DNA of 29,709 nt. Origin: an uncultured bacterium. GTDB taxonomy: Bacteria; Patescibacteriota; Dojkabacteria; CALFHW01. This document shows, in pieces, positions 1,322 through 27,682 of the stretch. The position numbers were made by a program, and so were the translations under genes. The stretch spans positions 1 to 29,709 of the forward strand of contig CALFHW010000016.1 in the NCBI GenBank assembly GCA_937876695.1. Reading direction: 5' to 3'. The notes beneath the pieces were generated by a model. The model did not search any database, was not told the origin of the DNA, and saw only the letters and a program-made list of their open reading frames with translations. How positions within the stretch are numbered: position 1 is the first letter of the stretch; every line of letters starts with the position of its first letter.

Positions 1322-3172
1322 ATGTGTGGAATTTTTGGATTTTCAGGCTACAACCAGGCAGCACCTTACTTACTGCGCGGACTTAAGAGACTTGAGTATA
1401 GGGGCTACGACTCCTGGGGAATATCGGTTCTTAATGGAGGCAAGATCTTAACCGACAAACAAATTGGGCATCTGCCTGAAATTGATAGCTACCTGGCTGA
1501 TTCAAAGCTAATGGAGAGGACAGGTGCCGCAGATGGGTCTGCAGACGGTCATACGGAAAACCGCATGATCGGGATTGCTCATACACGTTGGGCTACTCAC
1601 GGCGGTGTCACCCAGGTGAACGCCCACCCACATAGCAGTAGTGACCGCAGCTTCGTGCTAGCCCAAAACGGAATTGTAGAGAATTATCAGGAGCTTAAGC
1701 AACAACTAGCAGCCCAAGGTCACCAATTTCAGAGCCAAACAGACACCGAGGTAATTGTGCGTCTGATTGAACAGGAGCTGAAAGCATCCCCGAGTGAGTT
1801 GTTCCAGGCTGTCGGTAGGGCGTTTAGCAAACTCGAGGGTAGAAATACAATTATTGTGCTAGCGGTAAGCGGTGAAATCATTGCTATCCGCAACGGTTCC
1901 CCACTTGTAGCAGGGCAGCGACAGTTAGAAGCTCAAAAAGAGTACTTCATCGGCTCTGATTACCTGTCTTTTGCCAACCACACCAACAGCATCATGGAGC
2001 TTGCCAATTTCGAAGGAGTCTATGTCAGAGGGGATGAAATCCAGAAGATTACAGTCAACCCCGAGGGCAAAGGTGAGATGAGTCTTGAGCCAGCGAAATT
2101 TCATAGCGTGGCTCATGAGGATATTGACATCGATAAAGGCGGCTTTCCCGATTTTATGCTCAAGGAAATCCACGAACAGGCTGACACTATTGGCGGCGCG
2201 ACTGCCTACACCTTGGAGGAGCTAGCGCCGCTCATCGATGCCATCAGGCAGGCGCGTACTGTCTATACTGTAGGCTGCGGTACTGCGGCCTATGCTGCAG
2301 GGCAAATCGCTTACTATTTACGAAAGTTAGCGGGAGTTAAGGCCTTGGAGCTGAAAGGCTACGAGTTAGATAGTTACAAAAATCTATTTGAGAAGCATGA
2401 CCTGTTGATCGCCATTTCCCAAAGCGGAGAAACTGCTGATACTATTGAAGCCGTCGAATTTATGAAGGCCGCTGGCGGCAAAGTAGCTAGTATTGTCAAC
2501 ATGATCGGCTCCAGTCTGACCAAAATCTCTGATTTCCCTTACCTATCTAGAACCGGAGCTGAGATCTGCGTGGCCTCCACCAAGGCTTTTACTGCTCAGA
2601 TCGCCTGGGGCTTTCTGCTGGCATCCACCCTGAACGGCAAATTCAGCGAAGCTAAAAGTGAGCTAAAGCAGACCAGTGCGAGCATCCGGCAGTTATTGGA
2701 TAGTGATCTGAATGACAAGGTAGCCCAGGTTGTGGATTATATGAAGGGTCAAGAACACGCGTTCGTGCTGGGTAGAGGCCAGAATTTCTACATTGCCTTG
2801 GAGGGCGCGCTCAAAGTTAAAGAGATAACATATAAGCACTTTGAGGGCTTTGCTGCGGGCGAACTTAAACACGGTGTCATCGCTTTGATCGACAAAGGCA
2901 CTCCTGTGTTCGCAATTATTTCAAACGACGAGAGCAGCAGTGACATGCTCTCGAGCGTAGCCGAGGTAAAAGCTAGAGGCGGCATGATCATCGCAATCTC
3001 GCCGAAAAACAATGAGTTATTTGATATTTGGATCCAGACGCCGGAGTTAGCGCACACCTCTGCACTAGTAAATGTTATCCCTTTTCAGTTATTATCTCAT
3101 CATCTGGGTGTGGCATTGGGTAACAATGTCGACAAACCTCGTAATTTAGCTAAAAGCGTAACTGTAAAATAA
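1322..3172 (+). CDS. glmS: Glutamine--fructose-6-phosphate aminotransferase (isomerizing)
   Basis: Makes glucosamine-6-phosphate from fructose-6-phosphate and glutamine, the first committed step to UDP-GlcNAc and peptidoglycan. The 616 residues are the normal length. The class II amidotransferase domain starts with MCGIFG, giving the Cys2 nucleophile, and keeps HTRWATHG (87-94) and NGIVENY (116-122). Two SIS sugar-isomerase domains follow, with VGCGTAAYAAG (317-327; CGTA where CGTS is usual), SQSGETADT (366-374) and VASTKAFTAQ (417-426). The C-terminus KPRNLAKSVTVK is the family signature. A short hydrophilic insert sits near residues 63-80. Its TAA stop shares one base with the yvcK ATG (TAATG), so the two are probably translationally coupled. 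Confidence 0.97.
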   Translation: MCGIFGFSGYNQAAPYLLRGLKRLEYRGYDSWGISVLNGGKILTDKQIGHLPEIDSYLADSKLMERTGAADGSADGHTENRMIGIAHTRWATHGGVTQVNAHPHSSSDRSFVLAQNGIVENYQELKQQLAAQGHQFQSQTDTEVIVRLIEQELKASPSELFQAVGRAFSKLEGRNTIIVLAVSGEIIAIRNGSPLVAGQRQLEAQKEYFIGSDYLSFANHTNSIMELANFEGVYVRGDEIQKITVNPEGKGEMSLEPAKFHSVAHEDIDIDKGGFPDFMLKEIHEQADTIGGATAYTLEELAPLIDAIRQARTVYTVGCGTAAYAAGQIAYYLRKLAGVKALELKGYELDSYKNLFEKHDLLIAISQSGETADTIEAVEFMKAAGGKVASIVNMIGSSLTKISDFPYLSRTGAEICVASTKAFTAQIAWGFLLASTLNGKFSEAKSELKQTSASIRQLLDSDLNDKVAQVVDYMKGQEHAFVLGRGQNFYIALEGALKVKEITYKHFEGFAAGELKHGVIALIDKGTPVFAIISNDESSSDMLSSVAEVKARGGMIIAISPKNNELFDIWIQTPELAHTSALVNVIPFQLLSHHLGVALGNNVDKPRNLAKSVTVK

Positions 3173-9549: not shown

Positions 9550-10989
9550 CTAGCCTAATAGCTTCCTGCGCAGGTGCTCTGGCTGGAATAGCGCCAATTC
9601 CGGCGAACTTAGGTTAATCCAAGATAATTTGTAGGTGTTGTCGGCGCTAGATCTAGCCACTTCCTCTCCCAGCATTTGAACTTTGGGTTTACTTGCTAAA
9701 GTTGCCTGGAAATAAGTCACTTTTTCGCCAGTGGAAAGATCGGTGTAGTTGTGGATCTCCGTCAGGTCCGCGCTGGTTAGTTTAATAGTCGTCTCCTCGC
9801 TGAGTTCACGTAGGGCTGCCTTAACAGGAGATTCGCCTCGCTTGAGATGCCCGCCAGGCAATACGATATAACGCCTACCGAACTTCTGTCTGCGGATAAA
9901 CAAGACCTCATCGCCCACTCTAACCAATATTCTCGACTGAGCATTTTGATCCTCAGCCAGGTAGGCGTATACCCGAGCGTCACCGCGGTTTTTACCTGCC
10001 AGTTGCAGCTCTTGCAGAAGTAGCTGACCACCTTTAAGTGTCAGCACTAGTCCCTGCTCGGTTTCGGTTATTTTGCCCCAACTACTTTGCTGCAACTGAT
10101 CACTGAGCAGCTCCGCACTCCAGATTTTCAGTTCAATTGCCTTACTTTGCCTAAAAATTGTGATGTAGGCCCCAGATGCAGCCGCAAAGGCCCTGACCTT
10201 ACGCAGCGCCTCTACTGCACCCTCATAGGCATGTATCTGACCCTTTTCCCTAGCCAAATCCTTACTGTAACAATAACTGAGCTCGCGCTGCTTGCCCATT
10301 AGATTCGCTTGATCAGTGGGTTTAATTTTCCCGGCTACCCAATTTGGTAACACCGACAACAACAAACCTGCGCCCTCCTGCGCCGCTCTAGCACGCAGCC
10401 AAGTTGCGTCAGCATCAGCAGGGAGTTCAATCTCTTTCTCTGCCAGCACCGGCCCGTCATCGAGCCCTGGAGTCATCTTGATAACAGACACCCCTGATAA
10501 CTTATCGCCATTAAGAATTGACATTTCCAATGGCACTGCGCCGCGGTACATAGGTAGTAGCGAGCCGTGAATATTTAGGCAGCCATACTTTGGGTAATCT
10601 AGCACCACTGGCGGCACCATCTGGCCGTAGGCCGCGGTGATAATTAGATCAGGCTTGCTAGCCATCAATATCTCATCAGCCTGTTTAGTTAGTTTTTCAG
10701 GTTGGAATATCTGGAGTTCTTGTGCTGGAGCCGACATGGATGAGCCTGCAACCAAATCTAATAGCAATCTCTTAAGCGGCGGGGCTGTCAGGATCTGCTT
10801 GCGGCCCACAGGCCTGTCCGGCTGTGTAACTAAACCAACCAGTTCGAACCCTTCTCCAAGCTCACCTTGCGCTAATGCCTTAAGTGCCGGCCAAGCAAAT
10901 TCTGCCGTGCCGAGGAATAGAACTCTGACTACTTCTGTATGATTGGATCCAACAGAATCATTGTGCTTCTTGTCTGTAGTTTTTGCCAT
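9550..10989 (-). CDS. fmt: Methionyl-tRNA formyltransferase fused to a C-terminal Nudix hydrolase domain
   Basis: A 479-residue fusion. Residues 20-345 are Fmt, which formylates initiator Met-tRNA from 10-formyl-THF. RVLFLGTAEFAWPALKAL (22-39), LNIHGSLLPMYRGAVP (138-153) and GLDDGP (175-180) give the catalytic N139, H141 and D177, with SLLP (143-146) in the folate site. The OB-like C-terminal domain has KVRAFA (264-269). Residues 352-479 are a Nudix domain with a full box: GGHLKRGE (379-386), seven residues, then RELSEETTI (394-402), with Thr where Gly is usual. Fmt alone is about 310 residues. The frame runs unbroken through the junction. The first 18 residues are non-conserved, but TAAAAT 5 nt before this ATG supports the start. 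The Nudix substrate is unknown. Confidence 0.93.
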   Translation of the reverse strand: MAKTTDKKHNDSVGSNHTEVVRVLFLGTAEFAWPALKALAQGELGEGFELVGLVTQPDRPVGRKQILTAPPLKRLLLDLVAGSSMSAPAQELQIFQPEKLTKQADEILMASKPDLIITAAYGQMVPPVVLDYPKYGCLNIHGSLLPMYRGAVPLEMSILNGDKLSGVSVIKMTPGLDDGPVLAEKEIELPADADATWLRARAAQEGAGLLLSVLPNWVAGKIKPTDQANLMGKQRELSYCYSKDLAREKGQIHAYEGAVEALRKVRAFAAASGAYITIFRQSKAIELKIWSAELLSDQLQQSSWGKITETEQGLVLTLKGGQLLLQELQLAGKNRGDARVYAYLAEDQNAQSRILVRVGDEVLFIRRQKFGRRYIVLPGGHLKRGESPVKAALRELSEETTIKLTSADLTEIHNYTDLSTGEKVTYFQATLASKPKVQMLGEEVARSSADNTYKLSWINLSSPELALFQPEHLRRKLLG

Positions 10990-11039: not shown

Positions 11040-11090
11040 ATGCAACTCGAAGTGCTTAATTTAAGTTCAATGACCTGTAAACAACAATGA
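11040..11090 (+). CDS. Leader ORF (16 codons) coupled to ileS
   Basis: Encodes MQLEVLNLSSMTCKQQ. Its ATG lies 7 nt after the TATAAT at 11027-11032, so the transcript would start at or beside the codon. Its TGA stop (11088-11090) overlaps the ileS ATG as ATGA, a classic coupling arrangement. ileS itself has no Shine-Dalgarno. The peptide has three Leu and no Ile codons, so simple Ile-codon attenuation is not indicated; delivering ribosomes to the ileS start is the simpler reading. An inverted repeat CTTAA-T-TTAAG (11055-11065) is inside it. Inferred from sequence; not homology-supported. Confidence 0.45.
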   Translation: MQLEVLNLSSMTCKQQ

Positions 11091-14000
11091 GCTTCAGCAA
11101 ACAGCCTACCAAACCAGACTTCCCAGCCTTAGAAGAGAAAATCGCTAGTTTCTGGGAGGCAGGTAAAATTTTCGAGAAATCGGTAGAGCAGCGCGAAGGC
11201 GGCCCTTCTTGGCATTTCTATGACGGGCCTCCATTTATCTCGGGAATGCCTCACTACGGGCACATCAAGGACTTTATCGTCAAGGATGCAGTGCCTAGAT
11301 ACTACGCTATGAAAGGCTATCACACGCCCAGGGTATGGGGTTGGGATTGCCATGGATTGCCAATCGAAAATAAAGTTGAAAAGAAGCTGGGGTTAACTTC
11401 CAAGTTACAGGTTGAGGAATTTGGAATTAGCCAATACATCGCAGAGTGTTATGACTATACTCGCTCGACTTCAGATGAATGGCCATGGTATGTGCGTAAA
11501 ATGGGTAGATGGACCGACTACAAGCACGCCTACCGTACCATGGACCAAAATTACATGGAAACAGTCTGGTGGGTCTTTAAAACCTTGAAGGAGAAAGGCT
11601 TAGTCTACCGAGGCTGGCGCTCTTCACTCTACTCTACTGATTCGGCAACTCCAGTGTCCAACTTCGAAATCGCTATGGACAACACCTACGAAGACGTGGA
11701 AGATAAGGCCATCACGGTTAAATTCAAGTTGCAGCAGGATCAAAAGCTAACAGATTTCCTGGCTAGAATCGGCACTGGGAATCTACCAACTGGCGCAGCT
11801 GAGGATCTGTTTATGTTCAGTTGGACCACTACGCCTTGGACTATCCCTAGTAATTATGCGCTGGCAGTTAATCCTGCTGAGGATTATGTGTTAGTCGAAA
11901 CCCCAGTAGATAATTCAAAATTCATTGCTAGATGGATATCTGGCGACAAGCCATTTGACTACACTAAGGCCCCTAGGCAAAGTGTGGAGACTATCATCCT
12001 CAGCCTGGCTGGGCAAGAGGTCGCAGCTGACAGCAAGCTAGCAAGCCAGGCTGGCAAGGCAGTTAGCGATTTGAGTCAGCTGACTGAGCTAGAGATCTGC
12101 CTCACGAAAATCGGCAAGGAGTTCTTTTTTGACTTAGATGGCGAGCTTACCCCGATTGATCAAAAGAATTACCAGGAGCTCAGCAAGCTCGCCACCACAC
12201 CGGCAATAAAGAAGGTGCGCTATAGTTACCCCTTGGGCGGCGAGAATGGAGTGGACGAACTCAGCAAAAGTGCCGACAAGAGACAACACACCGCGTATAT
12301 CGACGAATATCAAGGCGAGCTAGCAGGCCTAAACCTAATCGAAATCGACTTTGAGACGCCCGTGCACTACATTTCTTTTAAGGAGAACTTGCCTGATTGG
12401 TTTGGAGAAGACCTAACTTACCGCACCCAGCAGCTAAATAATCTGTTGAGCAAGGCAGGTAACAATTTGGCAGCAGTCATCGAGGCATTTAAATCCGCAC
12501 CAGAGCAAGTTTTCGACCTAAATCGCGAGAAGTATTATCAATATGCTGTTCTAGCTAACAAGTTGGCAGAGTCCAACTTGCGTGAGTTCCAAGTTCTAGC
12601 CTCATTCAAAGGTAAAGAGCTGGAAGGCTTAAACTATGAGCAAATCTATAAATTCTTCCCTGGCGGCGAAAACGACTTCAAGGTTTATCTATCAGAAGGG
12701 GTTACAGTTGAGGATGGAACTGGAGTTTTGCACTTAGCACCGGCTTTTGGCGAAGAGGACTTCAATCTTGGCAAGGAGCACGGACTTTCGTTTACCCAAT
12801 GTATAGACGATGCGGGTAAGCTGTTACCTCAGACCGAACAATTCGCAGGGCTATATCTCAGAGATGCTGCCATGCCAATTATCAACGACCTCAAAAAACT
12901 AAACCGCCTCTACAAGGCAGCAAATTTCACTCATAGACTGCCCTTCTATCGCTACGCCAATCCATTGATCTACCGCGCCCAGGAATCTTGGTTTGTAAAT
13001 GTGCAACAGCTCAAGCCTGCCCTTCACGCTGCAAATGAGGATATCAACTGGATCCCCGGGCATCTCAAAAAAGGCCGGTTTGCCAAAGGAATCGATACCG
13101 CTCCTGATTGGTCGGTGAGTAGATCCAGGTTCTGGTCCACCTCCATGCCTGTTTGGGTAAAGTCAGAAGGCGGCAAGATAATCGACAACTATAGCGAGGA
13201 GGACACCCTCATCGTAGGCTCCAGAAGCGAGCTAGCCAAGCTTTCCAAGAACCCTGTCACTCAACTCAATATGATGCACTTGCCTTCATGGCAGGTTTTA
13301 GCTACCGACGGTGCAGAGGTGTTGGAACGCCTTAAAACATTAGTCTCCGGGCTCGATGCCAGTCTAACCGGAATCGACTCAGCCAGCAAAATTGTGCTGC
13401 TAAACCCAGAAATTGAAACTGAAATGTTTAAAACTGTCATCCAGGAAGTTGCGGGGGCTGGTGGAAATCCTGCCTTGGCAGAAAGTATTGAGACAGTCAC
13501 TATTGCAGATCTGCATAGCTTGCCAGCCGAGCTAGCTAAGCGGTTTGCAGGTCAAAATGTAATCGTTTTTACGCCAACCACAGCAGCATCCCAGCTGGTC
13601 AGCCATTTCGAGGGCAAAAACGAAACAGAGGCCTATAACAGTCTAGAACGCGGCAAATATTCTCCCGGCTATTATCCCCTATTCCTACTTGGAGATCGCC
13701 TCCTAGACCTGCACAGGCCAGTTATTGACGATGTAGTGCTAGTCGATAAAGCCAGCGGCCAGGAATACGTGCGCGTACCCGAGGTGCTGGATGTATGGAT
13801 GGATAGCGGTTCTATGCCTTATGCCCAGTTACATTATCCATTTGAAAATAAGCTAACCTTTGAAAACAACTACCCAGCTGATTTCATAGTGGAATACATC
13901 GCACAGACCAGGGCTTGGTTCTACGTGACACACGTTCTGGGAGTAGCGCTTACGGGTAAGCAAGCTTTCAAAAACGTAGTCACTTCTGGGGTGATATTCG

Positions 14001-15280
14001 GTACTGATGGCCGCAAAATGAGCAAAACCTACGGCAATTACCCCGACCCTAAGCTGACTTTGGAGAGCTACGGCGCCGAGGCCATGCGCTGGTACTTCCT
14101 CAACTCTAAGTTGATCGTAGGCGAGGACATCAATTTCGACGAAAAAGGCCTGCGCGACCAGCTGAGGCTTTACATTTTGCCGTTATGGAATAGTTTCTCG
14201 TTCTTTACTACCTACGCACAGATGCATAATTGGCAGCCAACAGCTGAGTTAGTTACCAATAAGACCAATCCTAAGATCCGCACGGTATTCTCAGTTCCCG
14301 GCGGCGAGCGCAACGATACTTACTGGCATAAAGTACCACTTACCCCGAAGCACAAGCTGGATATCTGGATCATCGCCAAATTGCAGCAACTCACCCACGA
14401 AGTGCGCATCGAGCTGGATCAATACCAGATCCCCAAAGCCACCAGGATGCTGGAGGACTTCGTAGCAGTGCTTTCCAAATGGTACATCCGCAGTTCCAGG
14501 GCTAGATTTGCTAGCGGAGATAGCGAGGCATTCAGTACTCTGTACTACGTGCTGGTAGAATTTACTAAGCTCACCGCTCCTTTCACACCTTTCGTAGCGG
14601 AAGAGATGTACAACGAATTAGTTCATAAGCAATTACCTGAACAACTCGAGTCAGTGCACTTATGCGACTATCCAGAGGCAGATATTGAATTCTGGGAGGA
14701 GAACGCCTTGGTGCTCAAGAAAATGCAGGCGCTGCAGGAGATCGTCAGTCTGGGGCAGAAGCTGCGTAATCAAGCAGCCCTGAAGGTACGCCAACCATTG
14801 CAAGATATCGAGGTGAGGATGGTGTTAGACCACGCCCGTGATAAGGAGCTGGAAAATTGGATGGAAGAAATTATCGCTGAGGAACTAAATATCAAACAGG
14901 TTAAAGAGGTATTGAATTTACAAGAGAAAGAGGGCTATTTGCTGCTCAAGAGTAGCGAGGCTGACATCACAGTGAACCTAAATACCGCGCTCACGCCTCA
15001 GCTACTTGCCGAAGGCTATGTGCGCGAGTTGACTCGCCAGGTGCAAAAACTTCGTAAAGATGCTGGTCTCGATATCGCTGATAGCATTAAGCTGGAGATA
15101 ATTGGCGAAGCTCAAATTATCACTCTACTGGGTGAAATGCAATCCGAAATCAGCGGTGCAGTTAGAGCTAGCGAGCTTAAATTAAGCGGTAGCAGCCAAT
15201 ACAAACCTGCAGACCTCGAGGTCGTAGCTAGCCTTAAACTGGGCGAAGGGGTTGTTTACATAAGATTTGAGAGGGGCTAA
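11087..15280 (+). CDS. ileS: Isoleucyl-tRNA synthetase, type 2, with two extra inserted domains
   Basis: Charges tRNA-Ile with isoleucine in the cytoplasm. The class Ia signatures are HYGH (56-59) and KMSKT (977-981). WTTTPWTIPSN (246-256) and GTGVLHLAPAFGEEDF (544-559) belong to the CP1 editing domain; WSVSRSRFW (675-683), DVWMDSGSMPYAQ (902-914) and TRAWFY (941-946) belong to the core. The anticodon domain follows from about 1090, and no C-terminal Cys zinc finger is seen. HYGH and the missing zinc finger fit the type-2 (eukaryote-like) class. At 1397 residues it is well above the usual 900-1100. The excess is mainly residues 330-455 (CYTH-like) and 722-870 (histidine-phosphatase-like, without catalytic residues). 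It starts at the ATG overlapping the leader ORF stop, and lepB follows after 8 nt. Confidence 0.97.
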   Translation: MSFSKQPTKPDFPALEEKIASFWEAGKIFEKSVEQREGGPSWHFYDGPPFISGMPHYGHIKDFIVKDAVPRYYAMKGYHTPRVWGWDCHGLPIENKVEKKLGLTSKLQVEEFGISQYIAECYDYTRSTSDEWPWYVRKMGRWTDYKHAYRTMDQNYMETVWWVFKTLKEKGLVYRGWRSSLYSTDSATPVSNFEIAMDNTYEDVEDKAITVKFKLQQDQKLTDFLARIGTGNLPTGAAEDLFMFSWTTTPWTIPSNYALAVNPAEDYVLVETPVDNSKFIARWISGDKPFDYTKAPRQSVETIILSLAGQEVAADSKLASQAGKAVSDLSQLTELEICLTKIGKEFFFDLDGELTPIDQKNYQELSKLATTPAIKKVRYSYPLGGENGVDELSKSADKRQHTAYIDEYQGELAGLNLIEIDFETPVHYISFKENLPDWFGEDLTYRTQQLNNLLSKAGNNLAAVIEAFKSAPEQVFDLNREKYYQYAVLANKLAESNLREFQVLASFKGKELEGLNYEQIYKFFPGGENDFKVYLSEGVTVEDGTGVLHLAPAFGEEDFNLGKEHGLSFTQCIDDAGKLLPQTEQFAGLYLRDAAMPIINDLKKLNRLYKAANFTHRLPFYRYANPLIYRAQESWFVNVQQLKPALHAANEDINWIPGHLKKGRFAKGIDTAPDWSVSRSRFWSTSMPVWVKSEGGKIIDNYSEEDTLIVGSRSELAKLSKNPVTQLNMMHLPSWQVLATDGAEVLERLKTLVSGLDASLTGIDSASKIVLLNPEIETEMFKTVIQEVAGAGGNPALAESIETVTIADLHSLPAELAKRFAGQNVIVFTPTTAASQLVSHFEGKNETEAYNSLERGKYSPGYYPLFLLGDRLLDLHRPVIDDVVLVDKASGQEYVRVPEVLDVWMDSGSMPYAQLHYPFENKLTFENNYPADFIVEYIAQTRAWFYVTHVLGVALTGKQAFKNVVTSGVIFGTDGRKMSKTYGNYPDPKLTLESYGAEAMRWYFLNSKLIVGEDINFDEKGLRDQLRLYILPLWNSFSFFTTYAQMHNWQPTAELVTNKTNPKIRTVFSVPGGERNDTYWHKVPLTPKHKLDIWIIAKLQQLTHEVRIELDQYQIPKATRMLEDFVAVLSKWYIRSSRARFASGDSEAFSTLYYVLVEFTKLTAPFTPFVAEEMYNELVHKQLPEQLESVHLCDYPEADIEFWEENALVLKKMQALQEIVSLGQKLRNQAALKVRQPLQDIEVRMVLDHARDKELENWMEEIIAEELNIKQVKEVLNLQEKEGYLLLKSSEADITVNLNTALTPQLLAEGYVRELTRQVQKLRKDAGLDIADSIKLEIIGEAQIITLLGEMQSEISGAVRASELKLSGSSQYKPADLEVVASLKLGEGVVYIRFERG

Positions 15281-25228: not shown

Positions 25229-27682
25229 TTATTGCGATAACTCTACCTGGATTTTATCTTGCGAGCCAGGCATACGGCGTAGAAAGCCGGGCAGGTATGC
25301 AGGACTGTAGTTAATCTGCACTTGTTCTACGTCTGGTATGGCTCTAAGCGTCTGTTCTGCCTGCTCAGTGCCTACCCCCAGGACTTTACCCCGGAGCTCA
25401 TCTTTATCGAACTGGGCAGATACAGAAGCATTCGTAGTGATTGTAAAGCTGGCTCTACTGCCATCGACTGTGATTGCAGAGAGGACGGGGCTCTCCATGC
25501 CGGCTATTTTGACCTCAGCAGCAATCTGAGACTGCTCGCGAACTAACTGCTCAGAAATGCTCGACAGGTCTGCTGCTGACACCACTGCGATTTCGGCCTT
25601 CATTGTAACTGTCAGATTAAAATTATCAGCCTCATCGCCTACTTTTTTATCTGAAGTTACCTCAGCATTGCCGAATTTGATCTCGTCATATAGCTTAACC
25701 TCGCTGCTGGATAAGAGTCCCTGGATCTCGGACTCGAGGGCATCTCTGGTCAGGCCAGTTAGCAAGGTGACACTGCCATCGTAGTCGTTCTGGCCGACGG
25801 TCTTGGTCTCGGATTTACTGCCACCGGTTATCTGGGAATAGCTAAAGATCAGTAAATCCGGGTTTCCACCATCCTTGAGTTTGAAGTCCTTTTTGGCATT
25901 GGTCTCTTGGTTATACTGGGTGCCCAGATCTACCGCAGTGATGCGAACCCCATTGGTATTGCCCGAGGCCGGAATCACTACGTCGCTATCAAGTGCATAT
26001 TCAATCCCGCTTTTACCAACCGAGCTCAACACTCTGCCAGCCTTCAGCTGAACTGGCACATTTGAGGAGTTGAGCATATTTACCGAACCCTTAGCCTTTT
26101 CACCCTTTTGCCCTGTCCCTGTAGTCGGGAAGGTATCTGATCTGGAAGCAGTTCTGGAAATAACTCTCATCGGTACAGTCAAAGCAGAGATATCAACTGC
26201 GGTGGCATCCACCAAGGCCGTAACTTGTTGACTAATGGGCACATCGCGCGAAGCCACATTTACTACAACTTTGGCGCTGGGGAATACAAATACAGACAGC
26301 AGCATAAAAACCAGACCGAAAACAGCTACGCCAGCTACAATTTTCGGTTTGTTACTGCCTGCTTGGCCCCAATACTTAGCCGAAGCGCTGCGAAAGCCAG
26401 CCCAGTATTTTCCGACCATGGCAGATTGGCTAGCTACTGCCCTGGAAATAGAATTGGCATTATTAGGCCTGGACCTCGGGGAGATATTGTTCATGCTTTG
26501 TGGGGCACTGCTGCGTCCACGTGACTGATAGTTTAATCTGTCATATGCACCTGCTCTAGCAAAATTCGTGTCGGTGAATCTAGATTTTGCGGGTTGTTGG
26601 GTGGTTGGAATCTCCGGTGTTGTATGTTCTGCCGTTACCTGCTCTGACTTTGCATTTTCTGCCGTTGGAGACTCGTGAATTGCAGTATCTTGCTCTGAAG
26701 GCGAAACTGTTTCAACTTCCGACATTATTGACGCTTCCGATGCTGGCAACACTGGTGCTGCTCCAACTACTTCCTTTACTGGTGTAACTCCAACAGCCGC
26801 AGTGGGTGTAGTCTGCTTGCGCAGCCTGGAAGCCAGGCCAGCAATCCCATGAGTAAAATTGGCTACACCCTGTTTGAGTCTGGCACGGTGGTCTAGTTCC
26901 TGTGTAAGCGCTTCTGGCTCAGTCGTTACTTTTTTTTTAGGTTGGGCGGGCTCCCTTAGTTTACTGATATTGCGCATTTTGTTGCGCAGCATAGGACCCA
27001 ACGCGCTCACGCCCACATCTCCGCCAGTTAGCAACGCGTACTCTTCGAGGTCAATTAGTTTAGGTTCCAACTTATTAAACAATGGTTTTACTTCTTCATG
27101 GACAGGAGTACTCATCGCTGCAGTTGTATCCACCGGCATAATTGGAGTAAAACTCTCTTCAATATTTGGGATCTCCGGATTATCGACTACTAGTCTAACT
27201 TTCTCTCCTGTATCAGCGACCGCATCCATCTCCCCTGTTGCGATTCCGATTCCAGCTTCCATTACACCAGCTTCGCTATTATCAACCTGAACGGTACTCT
27301 CCTCATCCACAATCTTGTAGTCACCCGCCGAACGCTCGGCGATTAACTCCATCTTTTTGTGATCTTTTTTGAGGATTAACTCTTGTTTGAATGTATTGGC
27401 CTGCTCCCAAACCTCGGTGGTCACGTCGCTGATCTTCCCAACCGCAGCAAGTGCCGAAGCGGCGGCATACTTAAGCCCGAGTTCATCTTCGGTCACGACT
27501 GTCACCAGCTTATCAGTCCGGGCTAGCATTCGCGAAAGCAACTTCATAGATACCTGGCTGGAGACGACATTCGCAGCTGCCGGAATCACCAAGATCACTT
27601 TGCGCGAGCCCGCAGTAGCAATCTTGTGGCAAGCAAATACCACGTCTTCGTTTGGTTCGATAAAAACTTTTGTTACAGACAT
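25229..27682 (-). CDS. Single-span membrane protein with baseplate-J-like extracytoplasmic region
   Basis: An 817-residue protein. Residues 1-115 form an alpha/beta domain (KVILVIPAAANVV, 28-40; KLVTVVTEDELGLKYA, 58-73) of unknown role. Residues 120-440 are low-complexity linker rich in Thr, Glu, Pro and Ser. One membrane helix (about 448-467) ends in FVFPSAKVVVNV. Residues 470-817 are outside and include GSVNMLNSSNVPVQLKAGR (532-550) and VVIPASGNTNGVRITAV (568-584), the pattern of baseplate J/gp47-like domains, which CPR genomes often carry in non-phage proteins. It follows the FtsA-like gene by 63 nt on the same strand. A link to cell division or envelope is inferred from that neighbour only. 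TATATT lies 3 nt before the ATG. Confidence 0.8.
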   Translation of the reverse strand: MSVTKVFIEPNEDVVFACHKIATAGSRKVILVIPAAANVVSSQVSMKLLSRMLARTDKLVTVVTEDELGLKYAAASALAAVGKISDVTTEVWEQANTFKQELILKKDHKKMELIAERSAGDYKIVDEESTVQVDNSEAGVMEAGIGIATGEMDAVADTGEKVRLVVDNPEIPNIEESFTPIMPVDTTAAMSTPVHEEVKPLFNKLEPKLIDLEEYALLTGGDVGVSALGPMLRNKMRNISKLREPAQPKKKVTTEPEALTQELDHRARLKQGVANFTHGIAGLASRLRKQTTPTAAVGVTPVKEVVGAAPVLPASEASIMSEVETVSPSEQDTAIHESPTAENAKSEQVTAEHTTPEIPTTQQPAKSRFTDTNFARAGAYDRLNYQSRGRSSAPQSMNNISPRSRPNNANSISRAVASQSAMVGKYWAGFRSASAKYWGQAGSNKPKIVAGVAVFGLVFMLLSVFVFPSAKVVVNVASRDVPISQQVTALVDATAVDISALTVPMRVISRTASRSDTFPTTGTGQKGEKAKGSVNMLNSSNVPVQLKAGRVLSSVGKSGIEYALDSDVVIPASGNTNGVRITAVDLGTQYNQETNAKKDFKLKDGGNPDLLIFSYSQITGGSKSETKTVGQNDYDGSVTLLTGLTRDALESEIQGLLSSSEVKLYDEIKFGNAEVTSDKKVGDEADNFNLTVTMKAEIAVVSAADLSSISEQLVREQSQIAAEVKIAGMESPVLSAITVDGSRASFTITTNASVSAQFDKDELRGKVLGVGTEQAEQTLRAIPDVEQVQINYSPAYLPGFLRRMPGSQDKIQVELSQ

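Follow-up and report, generated by a model that had tools for sequence, protein, structure and literature searches.

A CYTH-like domain inserted at an editing-region hairpin of a patescibacterial IleRS

The IleRS gene and its inserts

The window, by which we mean the whole stretch of 29,709 nucleotides that was analysed, contains an IleRS gene with large inserts at two places. The features are as follows, with residue numbers referring to the IleRS protein.

11087..15280, forward strand: IleRS gene, 1,397 aa, bearing inserts (open reading frame with family and structure matches)
11822..11842, forward strand: editing motif WTTTPWT, intact
11900..12532, forward strand: site-B insert, residues 272-482, between the strand DYVLVE (266-271) and YYQYAVLANKL (483-493), CP1 region
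11915..12463, forward strand: predicted CYTH / triphosphate-tunnel-like barrel, residues 277-459
11915..12148, forward strand: its N-terminal half, residues 277-354, strands predicted, CYTH sequence undetectable
12149..12460, forward strand: its C-terminal half, residues 355-458, significant CYTH sequence similarity by profile matches
12716..12763, forward strand: editing motif GTGVLHLAPAFGEEDF, intact
13247..13690, forward strand: site-C insert, residues 721-868, possibly a decayed histidine-phosphatase domain (alignment; model)

Pfam identified tRNA-synt_1, Anticodon_1 and DUF5915 in the window IleRS, which also matched the solved IleRS 1ile, 8c8u and 8wnd (Thermus, yeast, and Priestia are among the PDB sources). 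It presents a HIGH-like PHYGH motif, KMSK, the CP1 editing motifs, and an anticodon domain, as expected of a class I IleRS. Two stretches, about 272-482 and about 700-872, were uncovered in two printed alignments with solved IleRS; around the former, the match ended at residue 269 or 273 and restarted at 501 or 475. When aligned with 53 other IleRS (each frame 700 aa or longer and bearing a WTTTPWT-like motif; contig ends truncate some of them), the insert began after residue 271 and ended before YYQYAVLANKL.

The sequence-only reading of this DNA had proposed that residues 330-455 (12074-12451) are extra compared with the family and form a CYTH-like half-domain in the editing region. Its coordinates were correct, and so were the segments it singled out: IKKVRYSYPL (374-383), TAYIDEYQGELAGLNLIEID (402-421), and LPDWFGEDLTYRTQQLNNLL (435-454). 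These residues are extra, but the true extent is larger (~272-482). They do lie in CP1, but on a hairpin that precedes the editing body, with WTTTPWT and GTGVLHLAPAFGEEDF intact.

We considered an assembly chimera unlikely: the gene is one open frame, three member sequences are found on two contigs, and the layout is common to 42 clusters of other IleRS.

Next to the IleRS gene, a methionyl-tRNA formyltransferase with a C-terminal NUDIX domain (9550-10989, reverse strand; PF00293, E 1.4e-11) is another translation enzyme with an attached hydrolase. Further along, an 817-aa protein (25229-27682, reverse strand) gave a marginal Baseplate_J match (E 1.9e-5).

CYTH similarity, predicted fold and active-site residues

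We scored the window with a profile built from the CYTH rows of 47 other IleRS (the 42 clusters plus five loci 96-100% identical to a cluster, the window being left out). It obtained 29.6 bits (E 3.7e-8), whereas the best of 1,000 shuffles reached 10.5 bits and the best of 48 CYTH-less IleRS 2.7 bits. A profile of 72 stand-alone CYTH proteins gave 50.1 bits over residues 355-458, against 6.3 for the best of 500 shuffles. These profile comparisons confirmed that the CYTH similarity of the insert is more than chance, and it reached significance as expected of a superfamily member. For the N-terminal half (266-357), the CYTH score was indistinguishable from shuffles; the NE1496-type likeness proposed earlier is thus supported at the sequence level in the C-terminal half only. 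Moreover, a profile of 12 CYTH domains from the clusters, searched against the PDB, retrieved below E 0.02 only two entries, both NE1496 (E 3.1e-12 and 3.6e-12), with nearly the whole chain aligned.

That the stretch is a mere elaboration of the CP1 fold, resembling CYTH by chance, is hardly credible, even though Pfam CYTH did not match the window insert and the site-B insert alone, searched against the PDB, placed NE1496 in the top two positions at a non-significant E of 0.83-0.84. We rejected this candidate on the gap in the IleRS alignment, the profiles with their shuffle controls, the profile-to-NE1496 matches, the structure matches, and the 42 clusters with a clear CYTH at that site. The sequence-only reading had named best matches to other CP1 domains, with no CYTH similarity, as the result that would speak against it, and the searches returned otherwise.

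At the structural level, two models placed a barrel over residues 277-459, which aligns with two NE1496 chains over 142 of their 144 and 147 of their 150 residues; both were built on alignments with CYTH sequences, and such rows can impose the fold. The window domain is accordingly predicted to adopt the eight-stranded tunnel barrel that characterizes the CYTH superfamily. The term half-domain does not hold for its size, since residues 277-354 precede the matched half and the modelled barrel is complete over 277-459. On the whole, the earlier reading of the insert was partly supported.

According to passages of PMC8233210, ExExK is the CYTH hallmark, and plant TTM1/2-type proteins lack it. The pair Tyr-28/Lys-52 is put forward as the catalytic dyad of NeuTTM in a passage of PMC3440374. 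At the positions aligned with ExExK, the window has K, I, and R; opposite Tyr-28 it has Ile and opposite Lys-52 a gap, in a region where the alignment is uncertain. Overall, the equivalents of ExExK, Tyr-28, RxR, and Lys-52 are absent from the N-terminal half in the common alignment. Since this half lacks sequence support, the alignment behind these losses is uncertain; the ExExK and Arg strands, reported earlier as missing, are better described as unrecognisable. The C-terminal half keeps K-x-R-Y, D, E-x-D, and P-x-WFG.

The inserts of the 42 IleRS clusters are better preserved. Each Glu of ExExK is present in 41 of the 42, its Lys in none, and the equivalents of Tyr-28 and Lys-52, RxR, KxR, and the C-terminal E-x-E are each found in all 42. 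Among 48 stand-alone CYTH proteins of the type described below, 46 have a residue at the position of the ExExK Lys, and it is never Lys. Therefore, the loss of this Lys predates the fusion.

Relatives, origin and neighbouring insertion hairpins

The sequence-only reading knew of no standard IleRS with such an insert, but it is not a one-off. Searching one insert against 5.8 billion proteins with a cutoff of E <= 0.01, we retrieved 42 IleRS clusters (domain identity 54-99%), all with the CYTH insert directly after the WTTTPWT strand and fuller than that of the window. The four clusters with organism names are all Dojkabacteria or WS6. Precomputed Pfam matches included His_Phos_1 in 24 of the 42 clusters and CYTH in none, so domain-based database searches would miss the CYTH of these IleRS.

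A scan of genome contigs found a named Dojkabacteria locus (L001), and all 85 genomes of its class matched the window IleRS at E <= 0.001. Site B of the 53 other IleRS holds a CYTH-like domain in five and Nudix in two, with no insert of at least 30 aa in 46. One IleRS (L061) groups with the CYTH carriers yet has no CYTH and no scar. This scarless absence, together with the empty site B in 46 of 53, indicates that CYTH is dispensable in those lineages. We also examined whether fused and stand-alone CYTH exclude each other and rejected the idea: five of the 85 genomes had only the fused form, seven only the stand-alone form, none both, and 73 neither, which shows nothing because about 0.4 genomes with both are expected by chance.

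Regarding close kin of the window insert, only the insert itself was found among 1,915 candidates at E <= 1. A search of 379 sampled patescibacterial genomes matched four at E <= 0.001: the IleRS of two genomes (G003 and G006, already known), a 444-aa frame (L098), and a stand-alone protein (L100). The protein encoded at L098 (414 aa; 1459-2703, reverse strand), from a patescibacterial genome, carries a C-terminal CYTH with ExExK (EVERK), and its N-terminal part looks HD-domain-like by eye. The KMSK region most like that of the window among 145 genomes (63%) belongs to G128; in the order of this genome, matches at E <= 1e-60 were obtained in 20 of 27 genomes, the frames among the matches listed being no longer than 1,001 aa.

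The insert profile gave 2,055 matches, and the best 120 of the 2,055 start with 48 short proteins (P0044-P0091) of 120-254 aa (median 182). They are 42-54% identical to the first query row, except for P0076 (70%). We call them stand-alone patescibacterial-type CYTH proteins, a group name inferred from few named members (two Patescibacteria and one 'bacterium'). When the C-terminal halves were placed in a thinned tree, the IleRS inserts branched from within these proteins, which suggests that the IleRS insert arose by capture of a whole gene.

The window CYTH could instead derive from a separate, convergent capture, in which an ordinary CYTH with ExExK entered the hairpin that is also occupied in Dojkabacteria IleRS. 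The alternative is that both go back to one insertion, of which the window has a decayed copy. We hold separate capture as a tentative idea, somewhat less probable than its negation. The ordinary-CYTH profile scored the window higher than the IleRS-insert profile (50.1 vs 34.3 bits), and the residue log-odds of the window were +34.6, compared with +42 for the lowest of 72 ordinary members and -19 for the highest of 90 patescibacterial-type members. The window also fell within the ordinary clade in a 67-row tree (100/98), and its IleRS core joined five insert-free IleRS (99, quick tree) rather than the main clade of CYTH carriers. However, neither a single clade of the window and the IleRS inserts (p 0.52) nor one extended to the stand-alone patescibacterial type (p 0.79) was rejected by the AU test, and constraining the tree in these two ways raised the likelihood above that of the quick tree without constraint, by 0.5 and 11.7. 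The window branch is very long (4.27), its best pairwise score is with an IleRS insert (191, vs 178 for ordinary CYTH), and six diagnostic positions match the patescibacterial type. With profiles, log-odds, and trees in favour but AU tests and pairwise score not, we dropped a firm claim of separate capture; such an origin is compatible with the reading of the domain that we favour below.

Other hairpins of patescibacterial IleRS also hold domains. At site A, before WTTTPWT, six of the 53 IleRS have Nudix, recognised by the Nudix box (L038-L042 and L062), and two have a serine hydrolase (L001 and L060; PF06821, E 3e-10 for L001). A Nudix box is likewise present at site A of one Gracilibacteria IleRS, read with code 25. 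Site B holds either CYTH or Nudix (PF00293, E 1.4e-18 in L001). The Dojkabacteria IleRS of L001 (7980-12596; 1,538 aa) combines three inserts: serine hydrolase and Nudix, both by Pfam, and histidine phosphatase, by RHG. A scan across the phylum for Nudix was uninformative, since Nudix genes occur in most genomes and the matches listed are a part of the total.

At site C, the window insert presented an alpha/beta pattern in the model. Its core scored 9.5 bits with a histidine-phosphatase profile (best of 1,000 shuffles, 6.7), and residues 721-868 contain no RHG motif, as would mark a histidine phosphatase; the likeness is weak and suggestive only. A site-C insert, in many cases a histidine phosphatase, is also present in 37 of the 42 CYTH-carrying clusters, with 154-222 residues between the flanking anchors; the anchors are 29-30 residues apart in three clusters without insert, and two clusters were not measurable. 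PF00300 matched site C of L058 (E 3e-21) and L061 (E 4e-18), the site-C histidine phosphatase of L008 and L009 lacks RHG, and P0015 has a serine hydrolase there. An RHG/RHA motif near the start is kept in 28 of 44 site-C inserts examined.

Across the phylum, a search with the KMSK region at E <= 1e-20 matched 128 of 145 sampled genomes; of the 128 frames, 25 are 1,100 aa or longer. Among 20 of the 25 long frames that were read (L078-L097), besides L001, 16 have a histidine-phosphatase-like site-C insert with an N-terminal R-H-G motif, and Pfam confirmed the domain in the three tested (L078, L084, and L087). Another IleRS (L093) carries GNAT and histidine phosphatase elsewhere than at site C. 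A second histidine phosphatase was seen in L084 by Pfam and in L091 by likeness. Three more IleRS (L083, L086, and L088) share an unrecognised insert of ~130 aa at site C and one of ~50 aa at site A; in L083, the one tested of the three, Pfam matched neither.

Possible roles and comparison with known systems

The reading that we consider probable is that residues 272-482 are an inserted NE1496-type CYTH that folds as a barrel, has lost the N-terminal metal-binding acids, the Arg pair, and the Tyr/Lys pair, and is now a dead appendage. The CYTH would hang on a hairpin that follows the WTTTPWT segment and precedes the main CP1 editing body, where a self-contained domain with neighbouring ends may be tolerated. 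A compact CYTH domain with adjacent ends could thus have been captured at a surface hairpin, leaving synthetase and editing intact. In the relatives, site B would hold a preserved CYTH taken from the stand-alone patescibacterial family; this CYTH probably retains binding of a (tri)phosphate compound and may also hydrolyse it, and phosphate by-products of the synthetase may be its substrates. Since the N-terminal tunnel residues are gone, the window copy is most likely catalytically dead: dead weight, a passive spacer, or a docking surface. In proposing a structural or contact role, the sequence-only reading was right to the extent that a non-catalytic function is the best guess.

Several points weigh against a decayed CYTH: the N-terminal half without sequence support, the fold bias of the models, the absence of close kin from our searches, and a possible remaining phosphate-binding capacity of the retained K-x-R-Y, D, and E-x-D. 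The last could mean that the domain is no enzyme but a binding module, whose C-terminal basic and acidic residues hold polyphosphate, nucleotide, or tRNA and modulate aminoacylation or editing. These residues were kept while the N-terminal half diverged beyond recognition, and the domain is maintained in frame within an essential enzyme. However, they are also part of conserved C-terminal strands, the alignment used shows no equivalent of the Arg pair or of Lys-52 in the window, and close lineages manage without the domain; we regard a binding module as unlikely. That the domain is an active triphosphatase whose active site has been rearranged seems very improbable. The Tyr/Lys pair reported for NeuTTM (in a passage of PMC3440374) is present in the relatives, and the plant TTM1/2-type CYTH are described, in part of PMC8233210, as having a strong pyrophosphate preference despite lacking ExExK, but the window has none of the equivalents of ExExK, Tyr-28, RxR, and Lys-52, in an N-terminal alignment that is uncertain.

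Synthetases release PPi. Many of them can also make Ap4A, as stated in a passage of PMC8646023. At its broadest, patescibacterial IleRS may be a platform that has repeatedly captured CYTH, Nudix, histidine phosphatase, and serine hydrolase at three hairpins near the catalytic and editing sites. One enzyme would then combine synthesis and editing with the destruction of nucleotide or phosphate by-products (PPi, Ap4A, tripolyphosphate, and misactivated products), and some captures, perhaps the window CYTH, would be independent and later decayed. We find this scenario rather doubtful.

Searches of open-licence PMC papers gave us no description of CYTH, Nudix, or histidine-phosphatase insertions in IleRS; passages of PMC8646023 and PMC6744442 do not concern such inserts. 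The CYTH fusions listed in a passage of PMC8233210 involve HD hydrolase, exopolyphosphatase, nucleotidyl kinase, and CHAD, with no synthetase among them. Here, an essential and otherwise conserved translation enzyme acquired a phosphate-handling domain, and in other Patescibacteria it acquires other hydrolases at neighbouring hairpins. These findings raise the questions of whether aminoacylation is coupled to the clean-up of phosphorylated by-products in these organisms, and why domains have landed at these hairpins repeatedly.

Compared with known systems, the window IleRS shares its catalytic, editing, and anticodon parts with ordinary IleRS (1ile and 8wnd), which have nothing matching its inserts at about 272-482 and 721-868. 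The inorganic triphosphatase NE1496 / NeuTTM of Nitrosomonas europaea (PDB 2fbl and 3typ) stands alone, whereas the window domain does not and has lost the equivalents of ExExK, Tyr-28, RxR, and Lys-52. The stand-alone patescibacterial-type CYTH proteins are separate genes, about 50% identical to the Dojkabacteria inserts, C-terminal tail included, and further from the window copy (31.8 bits). Finally, the CYTH-carrying IleRS (clusters P0002-P0043; loci L008, L009, L011, L058, and L059) have the domain on the same hairpin as the window and are 41-47% identical to the window IleRS over its first 1,060 residues, but their CYTH is full and well conserved, and only 23-27% identical to that of the window in the five loci compared.
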